Program-made: the position numbers and the translations under genes | Notes under the pieces: generated by a model | What the model saw: the letters and a program-made list of their open reading frames with translations, nothing else | The model's database searches: none | What the model was told of the DNA's origin: nothing | From: Flavobacterium sp. N2038 | GTDB lineage: Bacteria > Bacteroidota > Bacteroidia > Flavobacteriales > Flavobacteriaceae | NCBI RefSeq assembly: GCF_025947185.1 | Contig: NZ_CP110001.1 | Coordinates: 620,001 to 684,000, forward strand | Length of the DNA stretch: 64,000 nt | Direction: 5' to 3' | Part shown: positions 5,301 to 33,312 of the stretch, one piece after another | How positions within the stretch are numbered: the first letter of the stretch is position 1 | Layout: each line of letters begins with the position of its first letter

Positions 5301-5673
5301 ACAAGTAAAACTTCGTGAAGCATTGCAAAATGAATTGGCTAAAAAAGGTTTAGACGGACAAGGCAGATCTGTTATTGACCAAATGAAGCAGTCAGAAAAG
5401 CAACTTTTAAATAAGGGATTTAAGAATGAGAACTTGCAAAGAATTTTAAATATTCAACAAGAATTGCTAAAATTAAATAATGCAGTGCAGCAACAAGGTC
5501 AGGATACGAAGCGTCAATCTGAAACAAATAAGACTGAATTTTCAAATCGCACGAATGCTTTACCAAGCTCTTTAATTGAATATTTAAACAGTGTAGAGAT
5601 TTTAAACAGACAATCACTACCTTTGCGCTCAAATTTTAACCAAAAGGTTCAAGAATATTTTAATACAAAATGA
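2302..5673 (+). CDS. DUF4175 family large membrane protein with long charged coiled-coil
   Basis: A 1123-residue protein of the Bacteroidota DUF4175 type; the molecular role is unknown. Two hydrophobic segments lie at about residues 23-50 and 56-80, a third at about 155-175. A beta-rich extracytoplasmic part follows (about 180-490), then a Lys/Glu/Gln-rich predicted coiled coil (about 495-800) and a Gly/Gln/Lys low-complexity stretch with repeated 'GQGKEGQG' motifs (about 900-990). The start is TTG at 2302: an in-frame stop lies at 2260-2262 and no in-frame ATG lies between. The overlapping ATG at 2274 is in another frame. The stop overlaps the ybeY start by 4 bases (ATGA), which implies translational coupling. 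The segment between gltX and this gene is short and should hold divergent promoters. Confidence 0.85.
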   Translation: MKTSSAIYQKLEGFIKKYYTNELIKGALLFIGFGLLYFLFTLFVEYFLWLKPAGRTLLFWLFIGVEVFLLFRFILFPIFKLFKLQKGIDYNQASAIIGNHFTEVSDKLTNFLQLSSNENSSESSELMLASIEQKANSLQPIPFGNAINFGTNKKYLPLAIIPILLFAVFYISGNSTIISQSFNRVVHFNASFLPPAPFKFVVLNSNLQTEQNKDFVVKVETEGKVVPENVMIHIGSESYFMESSQPGKFEFKIEKPVSNIVFSFEGNTVSSDEYELKVVTVPSIANFEMVLNFPEYLKKKSEIIQGTGNGIVPEGTTVTWKMNTQSTQEIVWKDEKTVSRFVKAENEFKLVKSISQNTEYQILTSNNKIKNYEKLDYQLSVIKDQHPTITVSPAPDSLKLDKNYVLGRMGDDYGLSKLQIVYYERGKPQTAKRGTIPVKQAVFDQFVFNFPSNLAVEEGVSYEYYFEVFDNDAPHHFKSTKSSVFSDRVSTADEVQDAELQQQNQNINSLEKSLKNQTKQISEMDKIQNTGKEKDNLEFKDQQKINDFIKRQKQQDEMMKQFAEKMNKNLDKFKDEKKDKTAEDLQKRLDNAEKDLEKNQKLLDELKNLNDKLNNEDLFDKMEKFKQISKNQSRNLEQLVELTKRFYVSKKAEQVAEKLNKLSDQQEQLSNKEKENTKEKQDDINKSFDKIQEDLKDLKEENKTLKAPLDIQQDASKEKDLDNDLQKASEELEKKNTSSAKQKQKSAAQKMKSMAKQMESSMDGGEQEQLEEDVAMLRQVLDNLLAYSLSQEDVMKQFKSMKLGSSAYTKNIKIQQNLKQQFKHVDDSLFALSLRNPKVAEDVTKEIGNVQYNIDKAIETLTDVQIPKGVSHQQYATSSANKLADFLSDLLNNMQMSMSKPGSGKPKPGDGQGMQLPDIIQKQKGLADKMKEGMKEGNKPGDSQQGQGSESKQGQGKEGQGKNGQGKEGQGNKNGGKGNDGKDGNDGEGDAEKIMEIYKEQVKLREALQNELAKKGLDGQGRSVIDQMKQSEKQLLNKGFKNENLQRILNIQQELLKLNNAVQQQGQDTKRQSETNKTEFSNRTNALPSSLIEYLNSVEILNRQSLPLRSNFNQKVQEYFNTK

Positions 5674-6089
5674 TCAATTTTAATTACGAAACAGATTTTA
5701 ATTTAGATAACGAAGAAGCCTTTTCTGATTGGTTGAGTGCTGTGATAGTTTCTGAAAACAAAAGCGAAGGAGAAATAAATTACATTTTTTGTGATGATGA
5801 ATATCTTCATAAGATTAATGTAGAGTATCTGGATCACGACACATTAACAGATATTATCAGTTTTGATTATACAGTTGGAAACCAATTAAACGGAGATATT
5901 TTTGTTTCGATTGAAAGAGTAGAGGATAACGCAAAGGATTTTAATGTTTCTTTTGATGAAGAACTAAAGCGTGTTTTAGCCCATGGTATATTACATTACT
6001 GTGGATACAAAGATAAATCAGATGCTGATGCAGATTTAATGCGTTCTAAAGAAGATGAAAAAATCGCAATGTTTCACGTGGAACAGTAA
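5670..6089 (+). CDS. ybeY: Endoribonuclease YbeY (rRNA maturation)
   Basis: Metal-dependent single-strand endoribonuclease involved in 16S rRNA 3'-end maturation and ribosome quality control. The 139-residue length is normal. The signature is 'HGILHYCGYKD' (H105, H109). The third metal ligand, His in the usual HGxLHLxGYDH motif, is replaced by Asp (D115). I believe this variant is shared by other Bacteroidota. The last codons, for 'MFHVEQ', are written with a parS motif (6070-6085). It overlaps the DUF4175 gene by 4 bases. Family assignment is secure. Confidence 0.93.
   Translation: MINFNYETDFNLDNEEAFSDWLSAVIVSENKSEGEINYIFCDDEYLHKINVEYLDHDTLTDIISFDYTVGNQLNGDIFVSIERVEDNAKDFNVSFDEELKRVLAHGILHYCGYKDKSDADADLMRSKEDEKIAMFHVEQ
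6070..6085. promoter_or_regulatory. parS site 1 (inside the 3' end of ybeY)
   Basis: TGTTTCACGTGGAACA, the exact reverse complement of the ParB-binding consensus TGTTCCACGTGAAACA. It encodes the C-terminal FHVEQ residues of YbeY. Confidence 0.88.
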
Positions 6090-6120
6090 TTAAACATCTT
6101 TTTAGTATAAAAGAATTACA

Positions 6121-6136
6121 TGTTCCACGTGAAACA
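6121..6136. promoter_or_regulatory. parS site 2
   Basis: TGTTCCACGTGAAACA, an exact match to the 16-bp ParB centromere consensus known from Bacillus and conserved across phyla. Confidence 0.9.
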
Positions 6137-6166
6137 TTATTTATTTCAAGAGGATATAATAAGACT

Positions 6167-6182
6167 TGTTCCACGTGAAACA
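6167..6182. promoter_or_regulatory. parS site 3
   Basis: TGTTCCACGTGAAACA, exact consensus, 30 bases after site 2. Confidence 0.9.
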
Positions 6183-6220
6183 CTTAAAAGAAATTTTATA
6201 TTTATGAGTTGGCTTTAAAA

Positions 6221-6236
6221 TGTTTCACGTGGAACA
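6221..6236. promoter_or_regulatory. parS site 4
   Basis: TGTTTCACGTGGAACA, exact reverse complement of the consensus. Confidence 0.9.
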
Positions 6237-6272
6237 TGAAATACTAAGCAAGAGGTTAAGTGATTTTTTAAA

Positions 6273-6288
6273 TGTTTCACGTGGAACG
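6273..6288. promoter_or_regulatory. parS site 5 (one end base changed)
   Basis: TGTTTCACGTGGAACG, identical to the reverse-complement consensus except for the last base. Confidence 0.82.
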
Positions 6289-6353
6289 TGTAAAGTAAAG
6301 TTTTGAAGTTTGAATTTGATTCAAAAGATTTCGGTTTTTAACTGAGTTTAATC

Positions 6354-6369
6354 TGTTTCACGTGGAACA
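6354..6369. promoter_or_regulatory. parS site 6
   Basis: TGTTTCACGTGGAACA, exact reverse complement of the consensus. Confidence 0.9.
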
Positions 6370-6429
6370 GATTATTAGGTTTAGATTGGAATTTGGAGTT
6401 TCAAGATTTAAATATTAGCGCATTAGCGC

Positions 6430-6445
6430 CGTTCCACGTGGAACA
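6430..6445. promoter_or_regulatory. parS site 7 (perfect 14-bp palindrome core)
   Basis: CGTTCCACGTGGAACA. The inner GTTCCACGTGGAAC is a perfect palindrome; the first base departs from consensus. It lies 64 bases before the mnmG start. Confidence 0.8.
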
Positions 6446-6509
6446 AAAAAGAGTATAAAGTTAATTCTGAGGACCGCCTTAAACGGTTTGCAGAGAATAA
6501 TAAAACAAA

Positions 6510-8381
6510 ATGTTTTTAGAAGAATACGATGTTATTGTGGTTGGAGCTGGGCATGCCGGTTCAGAGGCCGCAGCAGCGGCCGCAAATTTGGGATCCAAAA
6601 CTTTGTTGGTTACAATGAGTTTGCAGAACATTGCTCAGATGTCTTGTAACCCTGCAATGGGAGGAATCGCAAAAGGACAGATTGTTCGTGAGATTGATGC
6701 GCTTGGAGGTTATTCTGGAATTGTTTCAGATAGAACAGCAATTCAATTTAAGATGTTGAACAAATCAAAAGGTCCTGCAATGTGGTCGCCAAGAGTTCAA
6801 AGTGATCGAATGCGTTTTGCCGAAGAATGGAGAATGATGTTGGAGGGAACTCCAAATTTGGATTTCTATCAGGAAATGGTAAAGGGTTTGATTATTGAGA
6901 ACGGGAAGATAAAAGGAATTAGAACTTCGCTCGGAATTGAAATTCGATCGAAATCTGTTGTTTTGACAAACGGTACTTTTTTAAATGGTTTGATTCATAT
7001 TGGAGACAAACAATTTGGTGGAGGAAGAGCTGGCGAAAGTGCTGCAACAGGAATTACCGAAGATTTAGTTTTGGCAGGTTTTGAAGCCGGAAGAATGAAA
7101 ACAGGAACACCACCACGAGTTGACGGACGTTCTTTGGATTATTCTAAAATGAACGAAGAAAAGGGAGATGCAAAACCGGATAAGTTTTCTTATTCTGATT
7201 TGACAACTCCTTTAACGCATCAAAGATCTTGTCACATGACTTATACGTCATTGGATGTTCATGATATTTTGAGATCTGGTTTTGACCGTTCGCCAATGTT
7301 CAACGGTCGCATTAAAAGTATTGGTCCAAGATACTGTCCTTCGATAGAAGATAAGATTAATCGTTTTGCTGATAAAGAGCGTCACCAATTATTTGTTGAA
7401 CCGGAAGGTTGGAATACTTGTGAAGTTTACGTAAACGGATTTTCAACTTCTCTTCCGGAGGATATTCAGTTTAAAGCATTGCGTACTGTTGTCGGTTTTG
7501 AGAATGTGAAATTCTTTCGTCCGGGTTATGCAATCGAATATGATTATTTCCCACCGACACAATTAAAACATACTTTGGAAACAAAGCTTGTTGAAGGTTT
7601 ATATTTTGCCGGACAAATTAACGGAACAACAGGTTACGAAGAAGCAGCATCTCAAGGTTTGATGGCAGGAATAAATGCGCATTTAAAAGTGCATGAAAAA
7701 GCACCATTAATTTTAAAACGCGATGAAGCTTATATTGGAGTTTTGATCGACGACTTGATTACGAAAGGAACAGAGGAACCTTATCGTATGTTTACATCAA
7801 GAGCAGAATATAGAACATTGTTGCGACAAGATAATGCCGATTTCAGATTGACACCAATGTCGCATGAAATTGGTCTTGCTTCTGAAGCTCGTTTGCGAAG
7901 AATGGAAAAGAAATTAAATGAGTCTGAAAAGATGGTTGCATTCTTTAAAGAAACAAGTGTTTCGGTTGCAGAAACCAATCCTATTTTAGAAGCAAAAGAA
8001 ACTGCTCCAATTACGCAAGGGGATAAAATGTTTAAAGTTTTCTCTCGTCCGCAGATTGATTTGGAGGATATGTTGAAATTTGAAAAAGTGAAAGCATATG
8101 TTGAAGAAAATGATTTGGATAAAGAAATTTTAGAGCAGGCCGAAATCCAGGTTAAATATTCCGGTTATATCGAAAAGGAAAGAAATAACGCTGACAAATT
8201 AACTCGTTTAGAAGAAGTGAAGATTCCGGAGAATTTCGATTATAATAAGATTAAATCGATGTCAATTGAAGCGAAACAAAAATTAAGTAAAATTCGCCCA
8301 GTTACAATTTCGCAGGCGTCAAGAATAAGCGGTGTATCACCAAGTGATATTTCCGTGCTTTTGATTTATATGGGAAGATAA
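6510..8381 (+). CDS. mnmG: tRNA uridine-5-carboxymethylaminomethyl modification enzyme MnmG (GidA)
   Basis: FAD-dependent subunit of the MnmE-MnmG complex that modifies the wobble uridine (U34) of several tRNAs. It has 623 residues, a normal length. The FAD dinucleotide-binding motif 'VGAGHAGSEA' is at residues 11-20, with the family signatures 'SCNPAMGGIAKGQI' and 'GTFLNGLIHIG'. 'YFAGQINGTTGYEEAASQGL' lies in the C-terminal half, and the tRNA-binding helical end finishes 'SQASRISGVSPSDISVLL'. It is flanked on both sides by parS motifs. In many bacteria mnmG lies near oriC, often beside parAB; here its neighbours are ybeY and a GNAT gene, and mnmE and parAB are not in the window. Confidence 0.97.
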   Translation: MFLEEYDVIVVGAGHAGSEAAAAAANLGSKTLLVTMSLQNIAQMSCNPAMGGIAKGQIVREIDALGGYSGIVSDRTAIQFKMLNKSKGPAMWSPRVQSDRMRFAEEWRMMLEGTPNLDFYQEMVKGLIIENGKIKGIRTSLGIEIRSKSVVLTNGTFLNGLIHIGDKQFGGGRAGESAATGITEDLVLAGFEAGRMKTGTPPRVDGRSLDYSKMNEEKGDAKPDKFSYSDLTTPLTHQRSCHMTYTSLDVHDILRSGFDRSPMFNGRIKSIGPRYCPSIEDKINRFADKERHQLFVEPEGWNTCEVYVNGFSTSLPEDIQFKALRTVVGFENVKFFRPGYAIEYDYFPPTQLKHTLETKLVEGLYFAGQINGTTGYEEAASQGLMAGINAHLKVHEKAPLILKRDEAYIGVLIDDLITKGTEEPYRMFTSRAEYRTLLRQDNADFRLTPMSHEIGLASEARLRRMEKKLNESEKMVAFFKETSVSVAETNPILEAKETAPITQGDKMFKVFSRPQIDLEDMLKFEKVKAYVEENDLDKEILEQAEIQVKYSGYIEKERNNADKLTRLEEVKIPENFDYNKIKSMSIEAKQKLSKIRPVTISQASRISGVSPSDISVLLIYMGR

Positions 8382-8430
8382 AAATATGTTTCAGGTTTCA
8401 CGTTATTGTTGAAATCTGAAATTTTGTTTT

Positions 8431-8446
8431 TGTTCCACGTGAAACG
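8431..8446. promoter_or_regulatory. parS site 8 (one end base changed)
   Basis: TGTTCCACGTGAAACG, consensus except for the last base. It lies 50 bases downstream of mnmG. Confidence 0.82.
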
Positions 8447-8536
8447 TAAAACTTGAAACGTAAAACTTGAAACCTGAAACTTTAAACCTGAAACTTCAAA
8501 CCTGAAACTTCAAACCTGAAACTTCAAACCTGAAAC
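8446..8536. repeat. 14-bp tandem repeat between parS sites 8 and 9
   Basis: About 6.5 head-to-tail 14-bp units. The first two read GTAAAACTTGAAAC; the later ones read CTGAAACTTYAAAC (from 8474, 8488, 8502 and 8516) and end with a partial unit. The units share the GAAAC half-motif of parS. An inverted match, GTTTCAGGTTTCA, lies upstream at 8388-8400, so a long stem is possible at the end of the mnmG transcript. There are no spacers, so it is not a CRISPR array. Confidence 0.85.
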
Positions 8537-8544
8537 AAAAAAAA

Positions 8545-8560
8545 TGTTCCACGTGAAACT
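8545..8560. promoter_or_regulatory. parS site 9 (one end base changed)
   Basis: TGTTCCACGTGAAACT, consensus except for the last base. It lies 17 bases before the GNAT gene start. Confidence 0.82.
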
Positions 8561-28506: not shown

Positions 28507-31500
28507 ATGAAGAAAATCCTACTATTCATAACTTTATTTTACGGTTTTTCAAATGTACTCTATTCCCAGGATCAAACTGAGAATGGAGTTGTTTCGTTTT
28601 CATTACCTATAAGAAATTCATTAAAGTTTAATCGATATTTAATTAATCCTGCATTTAGTTTTGTCAGAGAAACAAATGCCTATGCAAGTTTCTACAACAA
28701 AAGACAATGGGTACAGTTTGAGAACGCTCCACAAACGTATTTAGTAAATTACTCAGGTCGTTTTAGAGAAAACGAGGCATTTGCATTTGGTTTATTTCAA
28801 CAGAATTATGGTTTAATGACTGTTTTTGGCGGAATCGGAAATTTTGCTCACAATATCGTTTTGCAGGAAGACAGTAATTTAACTTTTGGTGTAAATGTCG
28901 GAGTTTATCAAAGCGGTCTTAACAAAGGAAAAATTGTATCTGATGATACAGAAATTTTGAATGGAGACTATCCCTCAAATACTTTACTTACTGTTAATCC
29001 GGGTATTAATTACGGAACTGCTTTTCTGGATTTTGGTTTATCGGTAAACAATTTGATTCTTTACAATTTTGGTTCAGGTGTAGTAAAAGAGGATCCGGAA
29101 AGAGCAATCGAATTGCACGCAATGTACACTGGATATATTGATACTTACGGTTTCTTTGACAGAAGTAAATTTTCAGGTATTATAAAAACCGAAATTAAAA
29201 AAGACAAAACAGTTATTTCCGGACTTGGTATGCTGACCTTACAACAAGGAATCTGGGCACAGGCAGGTTATAATACTTTATATGGAGTTTCGGCAGGTTT
29301 AGGGGTAAATATTTCACCTAGTATTGCTATCGAATATAATTATGAAAGAGGAATGGGGAATTTTACAAACATGGGAGGTTCTCATGAGTTTGCAATTGCC
29401 TACAGATTTAAAAATAAAAATTACTATTACGGAGATGAAGAAGAAGGTTCTATAATAGATCCTGCTAAAGCAAAACCTGTAATGGCTAAAAAGACAGCGA
29501 GCACTCAGGTAACCAGAGTAGATGGTGGTGAGAAAGCGAGATTGGCTGCAGAAGCAAAAGCAATAGCCGATGCAGAAGCAAAACAAGCACGATTAGCAGC
29601 TGCCGAAAAAGTTAAAGCTGATGCCGAAGCTGCAAGACTAAAATTAGTAGCAGATAATAAAGCAAAAGCTGATGCTGCTGAGGCTCAAAAATTAAAATTA
29701 GCCGCAGATGCAAAAGCTAAAGTTGATGCTGCTGAGAGCGAAAAATTAAAACTTGCTGCTGATGCAAAAGCCAAAGCCGATGCCGCCGCTGCTGCAAGAG
29801 CGCAAACAGCCACTACAAACAGAGCTATTGGTGCAGAGCAAAAAACACAAGCACAATTAGCTGCAGATAAAGTGAGAGCAGATGCTGAGGCACGCAGAAT
29901 AAAATTAGCTGCAGATAATAAAGCAAGAGTTGATGCTGCTGCTGCTGCAAGAGCACAAGCAGTTGCAAACAAACCGACAGCAACACCAGAACAAAAAGCA
30001 CAGGCACAATTAGCTGCTGATAAAGTTAAAGCCGATGCTGAGGCTCAAAAATTAAAATTAGCTGCAGACGCCAAAGCCAAAGCCGATGCTGAAGCAACAA
30101 AAGCACAAGCAGCCGCAAACAAACCTGCAGCAGCACCACAAAAAACACAAGCGCAATTAGCAGCAGAAAAAGCGAAAGCCGATGCTGAAGCAGTTGCAAA
30201 AGCAAAATTAGCTGCAGATACAAAAGCCAAAGCCGACGCCGAAGCATTGAAAGTGAAGTTAGCTGCCGATGCGAAAGCAAAAGCTGATGCTGCCGAAGCG
30301 AAGAGAAAAGCAGATGTTAAAGCAAAAGCTGAAGCTGCAGATTTACAATCAATATTAGCTGCAGATGCAAAAGCAAAAGCAGATTCAGATGCGTATCAGG
30401 CTAAACTAGCTGCAGAAGCTAAATTAAAAGCTGCCACAACTGCAAAAACGAAAGCGAATATAGATGCAGCCAACAAAGCAAAATTAGCAGCTGACGCGAA
30501 AGCTAAAGCGGCAGAAGAAGCTGCCTTAAAAGAGAAATTAGCTGCAGATGCAAAAGCAAAAGCAGATGCAGAAGCAAGACAAGCTCTTATAGCTGCAGAA
30601 GCATTAAAAACAAAACAAGCTGCTGAGGCAAAAGTAAAAGCAGAAGAAGATGCACGTCAGGCTAAGCTTGCTGCAGATGCTAAAGCCAAAGCCGATGCAG
30701 AAGCATTGCAAGCTAAACTTGTTGCCGATGCCAAAGCAAAAGCAGATGCTGAAGCGCTTAAAGTGAAACAAGCTGCTGAGGCAAAAGCGAAAGCGGATGC
30801 AGATGCAATTCAGGCAAAATTAGCAGCGGATGCAAAAGCCAAAGCGGATGCAGAAGCATTGCAGGCAAAACTTGTTGCTGATGCCAAAGCCAAAGCAGAT
30901 GCTCAGGTATTACAGGCAAAACAAGCTGCTGAGGCAAAAGTAAAAGCAGAAGAAGATGCACGTCAGGCTAAACTAGCAGCAGATGCCAAAGCTAAAGCCG
31001 ATGCAGAAGCACTTCAGGCGAAACAAGCTGCAGATGCAAAAGCCAAAGCGGATGCAGAGGCATTACAAGCGAAATTAGCTGCCGACGCTAAAGCGAAAGC
31101 AGATGCGGAAGCATTACAGGCAAAATTAGCTGCAGATGCCAAAGCAAAAGCAGATATGGAAGCGCTTCAAGCAAAATTAATTGCTGACGCAAGAGTAAAA
31201 GCCGATGCAGAAGCAACTGCAAAAGCGAAAGCCGATGCAGAAGCAAAACAATTACAGTTAGCTGAAGAAGCGCGTCAGGCGAAATTAGCTGCTGATGCTA
31301 AAGCTAAAGCCGATGCCGAAGCATTACAAGCAAAATTAGCTGCAGACGCTAAAGCGAAAGCTGATGCAGACGCACTTAAAATAAAAGAAGCTCAGGAAGC
31401 AAAAGCAAAAGTTGAAGAAGAGGCTCGTCAGGCGAAATTAGCTGCGGACGCCAAAGCCAAAGCAGACGCCGAAGCATTACAAGCAAAATTAGCTGCAGAC

Positions 31501-33312
31501 GCTAAAGCGAAAGCTGATGCAGAAGCACTTAAAATAAAAGAAGCTCAGGAAGCAAAAGCAAAAGTTGAAGAAGAAGCTCGTCAGGCGAAATTAGCTGCTG
31601 ATGCCAAAGCCAAAGCAGACGCCGAAGCATTACAAGTAAAATTAGCTGCAGACGCCAAAGCGAAAGCCGATGCAGAAGCACTTAAAATAAAAGAAGCACA
31701 GGAAGCAAAAGCAAAAGTTGAAGAAGAGGCTCGTCAGGCGAAATTAGCTGCAGATGCTAAAACCAAAGCAGACGCCGAAGCATTACAAGCTAAACTTGCA
31801 GCTGATGCAAAAGCTAAAGCGGATATGCAAGCATTACAAGCGCAATTACTTGCAGATGCAAAAGTAAAAGCCGATGCTGAAGCTACTGCAAAAGCAAAAG
31901 CCGATGCCGAAGCCAAACAATTACAACTAGCTGAAGAAGCTCGTCAGGCAAAATTAGCTGCTGATGCCAAAGCCAAAGCAGACGCCGAAGCATTACAAGC
32001 AAAACAAGTAGCTGATGCCAAAGCGAAAGCAGATGCTGATGCGCTTAAAGCAAAATTAGCTGCCGATGCAAAAGCTAAAGCAGATGCAGAAGCATTGCAG
32101 GCAAGACAAGCAGCAGAAGAAAAAGCCAAAGCCGACGCTGATGCGCTTAAAGCAAAATTAGCTGCCGATGCAAAAGCTAAAGCAGATGCAGAAGCATTAC
32201 AGGCAAAATTAGCTGCAGATGCCAAAGCCAAAGCAGACGCCGAAGCATTACAAGCAAAATTAGCTGCAGACGCTAAAGTAAAAGCAGATGAAGAAGCTCG
32301 TCAGGCGAAATTAACAGCTGATGCCAAAGCCAAAGCAGATGCAGAAGCATTACAAGCGAGACTTGCAGAAGAAGCGGAGTTAAAAGCAAAATTAGCAGCT
32401 GATGCAGCTGCGGTTGCTGCAGCAAAAGCGGCTTCAGCGCCAAAAGACGATACAGCAAAAGCAATTGATAATTTAACGCTGTCTATAGAAAATGCAGGTA
32501 AAACACAAAAAGATTTATTAGCACAGTTTAACACAACAGTAGCAAATAAACAAAGAGACTTGAATGACTTGAGAGAAGAGAATGATTTAAGTGAAAAAGG
32601 GATCTACAAAGAACCAAAACCATTTAAAAGTGTAGCGGCAGAGAATAGTCAGTTAGAGGCTCTAAAAGCACAACTTGCGGAGGCAAATAAAAATCAGAAA
32701 GATGAAATTGCCAGATTGACAAACCTGTATAATGAAAGACTTAAAAAGGTTCCTAATAAAAATGATGCTGTAAACAGAGCTTATCTTGAAAAGATAAATG
32801 AATTGAAAGCAGCTCAGTTAAAAATGGAAGAAGACAGTGCAACATTACTTTCGAATTTAGAGCGTATTAAAACTGAAACTGAAATCGAGAAAAAACGTAG
32901 AATTAAGCGTGCTGCTTACGAAAACGATCAGGGAAGATACAATCAGGATGTTGCAGCTCTTAAACGTATTAAGGAAACAACAAAATTAAGCAGTACACCG
33001 CTAGTAGCAGCAGATTTTGATTTTGGTGAAGACCAGTCAAATATGCAGATTATCAAGAATATTAAAAATTCTGAAAATGGGTACTATATGATTGTTGCAG
33101 TACACAGCAGTGTTGAAAAGAGAGATGAATTCCTGAAAAAAGCGGTAGCCGCAGGACGATCAGATGTTAATTTCTTTTACAATGTAACAACAAGTAAATA
33201 TTATATCTACTACGAAAAATTCGATGGTTTGCAGGAAGCAACAAAAGCATTGGAGGCAAAAGGGAATAAGCCATACAACGGTAAAATGGCCATCGTAAAA
33301 GTGGAGAATTAA
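28507..33312 (+). CDS. sprD: Gliding motility protein SprD (PorP/SprF-like barrel plus Ala/Lys repeat rod)
   Basis: 1601 residues. After the signal peptide (cleavage near 'YSQDQ') residues about 25-330 form a PorP/SprF-like outer-membrane barrel module ('NRYLINPAFSFVRETNAYAS', 'VGVYQSGLNKGK', 'FAIAYRFKNKN'). Residues about 341-1308 are a low-complexity helical region built on a 17-residue unit (AKLAADAKAKADAEALQ), in part ordered into 51-residue higher repeats with KIKEAQEAKAKVEEEARQ inserts. A second helical segment follows (about 1310-1500), then a C-terminal SPOR-like end ('NGYYMIVAVHSSVEKRDEFL'). It is thought to assist SprB function; the repeat rod resembles the TolA spanning helix in composition only. 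It is followed by a hairpin and sprB. Confidence 0.85.
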   Translation: MKKILLFITLFYGFSNVLYSQDQTENGVVSFSLPIRNSLKFNRYLINPAFSFVRETNAYASFYNKRQWVQFENAPQTYLVNYSGRFRENEAFAFGLFQQNYGLMTVFGGIGNFAHNIVLQEDSNLTFGVNVGVYQSGLNKGKIVSDDTEILNGDYPSNTLLTVNPGINYGTAFLDFGLSVNNLILYNFGSGVVKEDPERAIELHAMYTGYIDTYGFFDRSKFSGIIKTEIKKDKTVISGLGMLTLQQGIWAQAGYNTLYGVSAGLGVNISPSIAIEYNYERGMGNFTNMGGSHEFAIAYRFKNKNYYYGDEEEGSIIDPAKAKPVMAKKTASTQVTRVDGGEKARLAAEAKAIADAEAKQARLAAAEKVKADAEAARLKLVADNKAKADAAEAQKLKLAADAKAKVDAAESEKLKLAADAKAKADAAAAARAQTATTNRAIGAEQKTQAQLAADKVRADAEARRIKLAADNKARVDAAAAARAQAVANKPTATPEQKAQAQLAADKVKADAEAQKLKLAADAKAKADAEATKAQAAANKPAAAPQKTQAQLAAEKAKADAEAVAKAKLAADTKAKADAEALKVKLAADAKAKADAAEAKRKADVKAKAEAADLQSILAADAKAKADSDAYQAKLAAEAKLKAATTAKTKANIDAANKAKLAADAKAKAAEEAALKEKLAADAKAKADAEARQALIAAEALKTKQAAEAKVKAEEDARQAKLAADAKAKADAEALQAKLVADAKAKADAEALKVKQAAEAKAKADADAIQAKLAADAKAKADAEALQAKLVADAKAKADAQVLQAKQAAEAKVKAEEDARQAKLAADAKAKADAEALQAKQAADAKAKADAEALQAKLAADAKAKADAEALQAKLAADAKAKADMEALQAKLIADARVKADAEATAKAKADAEAKQLQLAEEARQAKLAADAKAKADAEALQAKLAADAKAKADADALKIKEAQEAKAKVEEEARQAKLAADAKAKADAEALQAKLAADAKAKADAEALKIKEAQEAKAKVEEEARQAKLAADAKAKADAEALQVKLAADAKAKADAEALKIKEAQEAKAKVEEEARQAKLAADAKTKADAEALQAKLAADAKAKADMQALQAQLLADAKVKADAEATAKAKADAEAKQLQLAEEARQAKLAADAKAKADAEALQAKQVADAKAKADADALKAKLAADAKAKADAEALQARQAAEEKAKADADALKAKLAADAKAKADAEALQAKLAADAKAKADAEALQAKLAADAKVKADEEARQAKLTADAKAKADAEALQARLAEEAELKAKLAADAAAVAAAKAASAPKDDTAKAIDNLTLSIENAGKTQKDLLAQFNTTVANKQRDLNDLREENDLSEKGIYKEPKPFKSVAAENSQLEALKAQLAEANKNQKDEIARLTNLYNERLKKVPNKNDAVNRAYLEKINELKAAQLKMEEDSATLLSNLERIKTETEIEKKRRIKRAAYENDQGRYNQDVAALKRIKETTKLSSTPLVAADFDFGEDQSNMQIIKNIKNSENGYYMIVAVHSSVEKRDEFLKKAVAAGRSDVNFFYNVTTSKYYIYYEKFDGLQEATKALEAKGNKPYNGKMAIVKVEN
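29530..32430 (+). repeat. SprD 51-bp coding repeat array
   Basis: About 2.9 kb of tandem, diverged 51-bp units coding for 17 residues. Nearly identical blocks recur, e.g. around 31370-31760 (three copies of a 153-bp unit) and the matching pair at about 31200-31330 and 31860-31990. All frames are stop-poor, which produces many false antisense frames. Confidence 0.9.

Follow-up and report, generated by a model that had tools for sequence, protein, structure and literature searches.

The window, by which we mean the whole stretch of 64,000 nucleotides that was analysed, covers positions 620001-684000 of a host genome which consists of one contig of 4,673,854 bases. It contains mnmG (gidA) and upstream of it ybeY, and around mnmG nine copies of a 16-bp palindrome of the parS type (Table 1), all inside 2.5 kb. 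The host MnmG is 97% identical to that of Flavobacterium sp. MC2016-06, which supports kinship with Flavobacterium.

Table 1. The nine parS-type sites and their neighbours, in window coordinates.
Feature	Position	Strand	Remarks
ybeY, rRNA maturation RNase	5670..6089	+	TIGR00043; overlapped by site 1
parS site 1	6070..6085	-	exact; within ybeY 3' end
parS site 2	6121..6136	+	exact
parS site 3	6167..6182	+	exact
parS site 4	6221..6236	-	exact
parS site 5	6273..6288	-	1 end-base mismatch
parS site 6	6354..6369	-	exact
parS site 7	6430..6445	.	palindromic core GTTCCACGTGGAAC; 2 mismatches to the 16-mer of the original prediction
mnmG (gidA), tRNA-modifying enzyme	6510..8381	+	TIGR00136, 842.9 bits; bracketed by sites
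parS site 8	8431..8446	+	1 end-base mismatch; 3' of mnmG
14-bp tandem repeats, 6.3 copies	8449..8536	+	between sites 8 and 9; without known role
parS site 9	8545..8560	+	1 end-base mismatch; 3' of mnmG

The original prediction listed nine such motifs, and all of them were found where it had placed them. Five (sites 1 to 4 and 6) match exactly in one orientation, and the first seven span 376 bp (6070-6445), both as claimed. It also counted four variants deviating at an end base only, which is correct for sites 5, 8 and 9. Site 7 (CGTTCCACGTGGAACA) has one end mismatch and one internal mismatch and is therefore a variant with a fully palindromic core and not an end-base variant; a gap of 64 bp separates it from the mnmG start codon.

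When up to 3 mismatches are allowed the window gives 26 strand-wise matches, compared with 0.73 on average (sd 0.84) and 4 at most among 100 shuffled versions. Of the 26, 18 come from the nine sites, each counted once per strand, and the remaining 8, at 6722, 13134, 14422, 22449 and 27890, all have 3 mismatches. The genome-wide search with up to 2 mismatches, proposed as a check, returned 11 places, which are the nine sites and two isolated 2-mismatch matches at 399856 and 3949770; as a control the pattern was reversed, and it then matched once on each strand. With nine of 11 places in one cluster the motif is not evenly spread over the genome, and the palindrome occurs above chance expectation. 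Searches of the window for tRNA genes and Rfam families gave nothing relevant, and promoter-like matches between 5600 and 8700 were not in excess (8 versus 9.3 in shuffles).

Distance to the inferred origin

The density of sites had been taken as a sign that oriC is nearby. In the contiguous 527 kb analysed the cumulative GC skew has its minimum at ~610.0 kb, in the AT-rich sequence that separates rpiB from rnr (names by NCBIfam), and the parS sites start 16 kb from this point. The raw skew in 20-kb steps was too noisy, and for this reason the third codon positions of open reading frames were used. All 23 stretches sampled between 1 and 600 kb have a negative third-position skew, and those between 620 kb and ~2.8 Mb a positive one; in the interval of 600-620 kb the value is ~0 and genes on both strands are positive, as expected for a switch inside this interval. 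The skew plot thus agrees with an origin close to the sites. Exact TTATNCACA boxes (DnaA boxes) number 14 in the 527 kb and form no cluster at the inferred oriC, so that oriC is placed here by the skew, and it is to this skew-inferred oriC that the sites are close. An oriC beside dnaA was rejected for this genome, in which 1.05 Mb separate dnaA from the skew minimum.

Nine other genomes were analysed in the same way, and in 6 of them the third-position skew goes from minus to plus near parS. The sign change falls inside +/-30 kb of parS in 5 of the 9 (weakly so in G212 and G124), and in G109 between +30 and +80 kb; in G227 the change near parS reverts at +80 kb. Three genomes (G176, G147 and G247) have no sign change at +/-30 kb of parS, which were the flanks examined. 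In the available part of PMC10197239 most detected parS sites are clustered at the crossing of the secondary Hi-C diagonal in 12 of 12 species; it should be noted that the skew switch taken as ori was there chosen by the parS cluster itself.

ParB, ParA and condensin

A ParB loading zone presupposes a ParB protein, and the host genome has a single ParB_N match, at 1464309-1464587. The protein of 300 aa has N-terminal, HTH and C-terminal domains (PF02195, PF17762 and PF23552), that is the CTPase domain, the HTH and the C-terminal dimerisation domain of a ParB. It carries the CTP-binding motif GERR, and solved ParB, Spo0J and Noc chains match it by sequence. Directly upstream is parA, which codes for an ATPase with the P-loop KGGVGKTT (PF13614, 234 bits). 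ParB is present in all 80 sampled genomes of the phylum.

According to the available text of PMC7383237, R173 and G201 (Caulobacter numbering) are typical of ParB and Q173 and R201 of Noc, and a lysine at the equivalent of 184 is found in Noc and varies among ParBs. The host protein has R at 173 and G at 201, the residues of parS-type specificity, as located by a residue count along the GK-x-R ... N ... GHxR motif that the proteins share, and it has a lysine at the equivalent of 184. A Noc/NBS nucleoid occlusion system was rejected because of R/G instead of Q173/R201 and because of a score of 240.7 bits with the Noc model TIGR04285, below its cut-off of 315.

That parAB lies elsewhere was borne out: parB is 0.84 Mb from parS and 18.3% of the chromosome away from the skew minimum. 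This is outside the usual ori domain for parAB, a location which is usual and not strictly defining, as delimited in the accessible text of PMC7022226. In 22 of the 80 sampled genomes parB and mnmG are on the same contig, the closest being 301 kb apart. The distance was calculated for 22 chromosomes taken as circular, namely the host and 21 of the 22 same-contig genomes (G252, with an incomplete contig, was left out). Expressed as a fraction of the chromosome it lies between 0.08 and 0.49, the median being 0.26 compared to 0.25 expected for random positions, and the placement of parB relative to mnmG seems to be random.

ScpA is the partner of the condensin which ParB usually loads. The host genome has no match to ScpA. 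In the host's order all 15 genomes examined are without a detected ScpA; outside the order 62 of 65 genomes have one, the exceptions being G158, G162 and G189. Nor is a full-length Smc evident in the host, since the 17 SMC_N matches all belong to frames no longer than 731 aa. Smc-ScpAB, a usual and not strictly defining companion of ParABS, was thus not found in a search whose scope was ScpA and SMC_N. As ScpA is undetected in the order, ParB probably does not load Smc-ScpAB. PMC10197239, in the part available, reports no known condensin in two Bacteroidetes species having parS clusters.

Judged from these sequence comparisons, the nine sites are very probably (roughly nine chances in ten) the chromosomal parS centromere of a Flavobacterium, belonging to a ParABS system and placed near the inferred oriC. 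Counting against this are the distance of parAB from the inferred oriC, the lack of a box cluster there, the weak, reverting or missing skew changes in some of the nine other genomes, the eight of 80 genomes that have no exact core near mnmG, and the unequal orientations of the sites downstream of mnmG. The best reading is an ordinary ParABS centromere with an unusual layout, in which parS is anchored to mnmG, parAB is free, Smc-ScpAB is apparently absent and the sites have expanded locally in number. From what is known of the protein families, ParB dimers made from the distant parAB would load on the nine sites, bind CTP and shut into clamps that slide over ybeY-mnmG and the adjacent DNA, and ParA would pull the freshly copied origin region apart.

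The system is like the ParABS of Bacillus subtilis, Caulobacter crescentus and Pseudomonas aeruginosa in having the same 16-bp palindrome, clustered near the (here inferred) origin, and one ParB with a CTP-binding motif and an adjoining ParA. It is unlike them in the large distance of parAB from the inferred origin and the random-looking place of parB, and in that no ScpA was found, which in B. subtilis and Caulobacter is part of the condensin loaded by ParB. Within the host's own phylum, parS clusters are described for Bacteroides caecimuris and Muribaculum intestinale (PMC10197239, available part).

Number of sites and genome size

Family genomes outside Flavobacterium have exactly two sites in 99 of 118 cases, and one site on either side of mnmG is usual there. 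The genomes of the genus Flavobacterium (199 analysed) have from 2 to 12 copies of the core, mostly at one locus among the matches listed, and a high copy number is found in only part of the genus. The seven-site array 5' of mnmG is probably a local amplification, in which we infer the direction of the change.

In the genus the mean number of sites goes from 2.9 in genomes below 3 Mb (n=40) over 3.3 at 3-4 Mb (n=89), 4.4 at 4-4.9 Mb (n=27) and 7.9 at 4.9-5.5 Mb (n=22) to 8.9 in those above (n=21), and the Spearman correlation with genome size is 0.74 for the 199 genomes. With the genomes grouped by how closely their MnmG matches that of the host, the correlation is 0.80 at identities of at least 94% (68 genomes), 0.47 at 90-93% (36 genomes) and 0.20 (p 0.056) below 90% or unlisted (95 genomes). 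For 36 of the genus genomes phylogenetic contrasts were calculated on a tree of mnmG, and they gave r 0.69 with a permutation p of 0.0005; sizes were here rounded to 0.1 Mb except for the host, and the counts for G201 and G256 cover just the region that was fetched. The other genera of the family show a weak relation (0.29).

The additional sites may have arisen as an adaptation of dosage or through passive growth of the array. The passive explanation postulates that larger genomes have more intergenic DNA and more duplications, and that new sites are tolerated only in the vicinity of those already there; no dosage function is then needed. We consider the chances of this explanation to be about even. 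It fits with a relative (L111) in which a 117-bp tandem repeat in 5.3 copies contains parS variants, with the preference of new parS insertions in Caulobacter for the vicinity of the native cluster, described in the available text of PMC5815017, and with the persistence of two sites in genomes of up to 6.1 Mb from family members outside Flavobacterium. The survival of the correlation in the contrasts and the spacers of the window array, which are mostly dissimilar to each other, speak against it, but both are compatible with a passive cause.

A more far-reaching model, which we find doubtful, is that in Bacteroidota the centromere is bound to mnmG and the origin, with parAB being mobile, that in the Flavobacteriales, where no ScpA was found, the parS sites are adjusted in number to the size of the chromosome, and that ParB replaces a lost condensin. 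If this were true, ParB clusters would take over origin compaction or segregation force, and larger chromosomes would need more loading sites. In Flavobacterium the number of sites at a single locus varies naturally between 2 and 12 and goes with genome size, and the genus belongs to an order in which ScpA was not found.

The linkage of parS and mnmG

The parS core is present in 118 of 120 family genomes (reversed control 2 of 120), in 199 of 199 genomes of the genus (control 3) and in 64 of 67 phylum genomes outside the family (control 4), and mnmG adjoins the first site in 29 of 30 family loci examined. We also analysed 80 named mnmG loci, which according to their titles are nearly all from Flavobacteriales, and in which a site with up to 2 mismatches was counted as parS-like. 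Such a site lies within 600 bp upstream of mnmG in 75 of 77 evaluable loci and within 600 bp downstream in 76 of 79, and never inside mnmG (0 of 80). A Capnocytophaga MAG locus (L175) has no parS-like site by mnmG at this threshold.

Of 148 genomes searched for MnmG, 147 have it. The phylum sample of 80 mnmG regions, 67 from outside the host family and 13 from within it, covers every family seen having a located mnmG; three regions (L195, L234 and L258) are shortened by contig ends. In 72 of the 80 genomes there is an exact core not more than 600 bp from mnmG, and 74 have a site when up to 2 mismatches and 2.5 kb are allowed, G150 and G172 having imperfect sites only. The sites are found on both sides of mnmG in 30 genomes, upstream only in 22 and downstream only in 16. 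Within the same limits G181, G154, G208, G132, G151 and G224 have no site near mnmG; in the first two, which belong to another family, the core is at or in thrC, from its translation presumably the threonine synthase gene.

The occurrence of sites upstream, downstream or on both sides makes the adjacency to mnmG look more like a retained origin-proximal linkage than like regulation of mnmG. In Firmicutes and Proteobacteria a gene cluster mnmG (gidA)-rsmG (gidB)-parA-parB is located near oriC. Both there and here mnmG is a neighbour of the origin; at the present locus parA-parB is absent, whereas parS is present. Since mnmG is an origin neighbour in other phyla too, its link with parS may be ancestral. 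In the phylum the centromere would mostly have stayed by mnmG, near the skew switch in most genomes tested, with parAB having no fixed place, a pattern which suggests that selection holds the position of parS, and not that of parAB, near the origin. A literature search at the level of titles and the beginnings of abstracts recognised no report of a parS-mnmG link in Bacteroidota, and an earlier mention is possible.

It could also be hypothesized that parS mainly serves to regulate mnmG, in that ParB close to the start represses or insulates the gene and so ties tRNA modification to origin copy number. Many of the 80 named Flavobacteriales loci do have one site 6-16 bp before the mnmG start codon, and ParB-dependent repression from an intergenic parS is known in P. 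aeruginosa (PMC7022226, available part). The genomes with downstream sites only are at variance with this, because a start-proximal site is then not a shared feature, and so is the move of parS from mnmG to thrC in G181 and G154. Regulation as the main function is accordingly unlikely, although a ParABS centromere at this place might still have a local regulatory side effect on mnmG.

That the palindromes are RNA hairpins or terminators in a ybeY-mnmG transcript and not ParB sites is highly improbable: GTTCCACGTGGAAC does self-fold and terminator-like matches number 4 compared to 1.8 +/- 1.3 in shuffles, one of them covering site 6, but the motif is of the parS type, the host has ParB, the sites are nearly absent elsewhere, and the two asymmetric orientations, which would differ in pairing (U-G versus C-A), are equally frequent upstream of mnmG (15 versus 15), as they would be for a DNA-bound dimer, and unequal downstream (24 versus 7) with the worse-pairing form being the commoner.

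Site 1 encodes the FHVEQ tail of the ybeY product. Among 76 loci having an exact core upstream of mnmG, the site is read as FHV[E/K] in 35, at the end of an upstream reading frame or close to it (confirmed as ybeY only where ybeY was aligned), and in 38 there is an overlap in any frame.

parS motifs away from mnmG, and contigs with doubtful labels

Two genomes of the same phylum but of another family than the host, G181 and G154, have no parS near mnmG; in both the exact core motif lies at or in a gene which we take, from its translation, to code for threonine synthase. This position, away from mnmG, suggests from sequence that the centromere was relocated in these two genomes. A MAG labelled Capnocytophaga (locus L175) also lacks a parS-like site near mnmG, and its relatives differ from it in this respect. 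Flavobacterium-like mnmG genes with parS on both sides were found on contigs labelled as MAGs of Chitinophaga pinensis (L117, 90%) and Limnohabitans (L120, 82%), which are probably misbinned or mislabelled.

Tandem repeats in a relative and in the host, and other features of the host

In Flavobacterium sp. MC2016-06 a 117-bp tandem repeat (5.3 copies) lies 5' of mnmG and contains parS variants in which CACGTG is replaced by CACATG. In the window the gap between both downstream parS sites is occupied by 14-bp tandem repeats, AAACTTCAAACCTG.

The N2038 assembly has a single dnaA, which is split over several reading frames; the breaks may be sequencing errors or real damage. Between 30 and 32 kb of the window AT skew is high, owing to a 1601-aa ORF with a long alanine/lysine/aspartate-rich stretch encoded by a 51-bp repeat in about 34 copies. 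It is followed by a 5901-aa ORF that resembles a gliding-motility adhesin.

Positions of the features discussed
Feature	Position	Remark
parS core, G181	L289:7927	
parS core, G154	L290:7580	
117-bp repeat, MC2016-06	L111:5321-5941	
14-bp repeats	window 8449-8536	
Broken dnaA	L066:4436-5862	chromosome about 1660.3-1661.7 kb
1601-aa ORF	window 28507-33312	PorP/SprF domain PF11751, N-terminal
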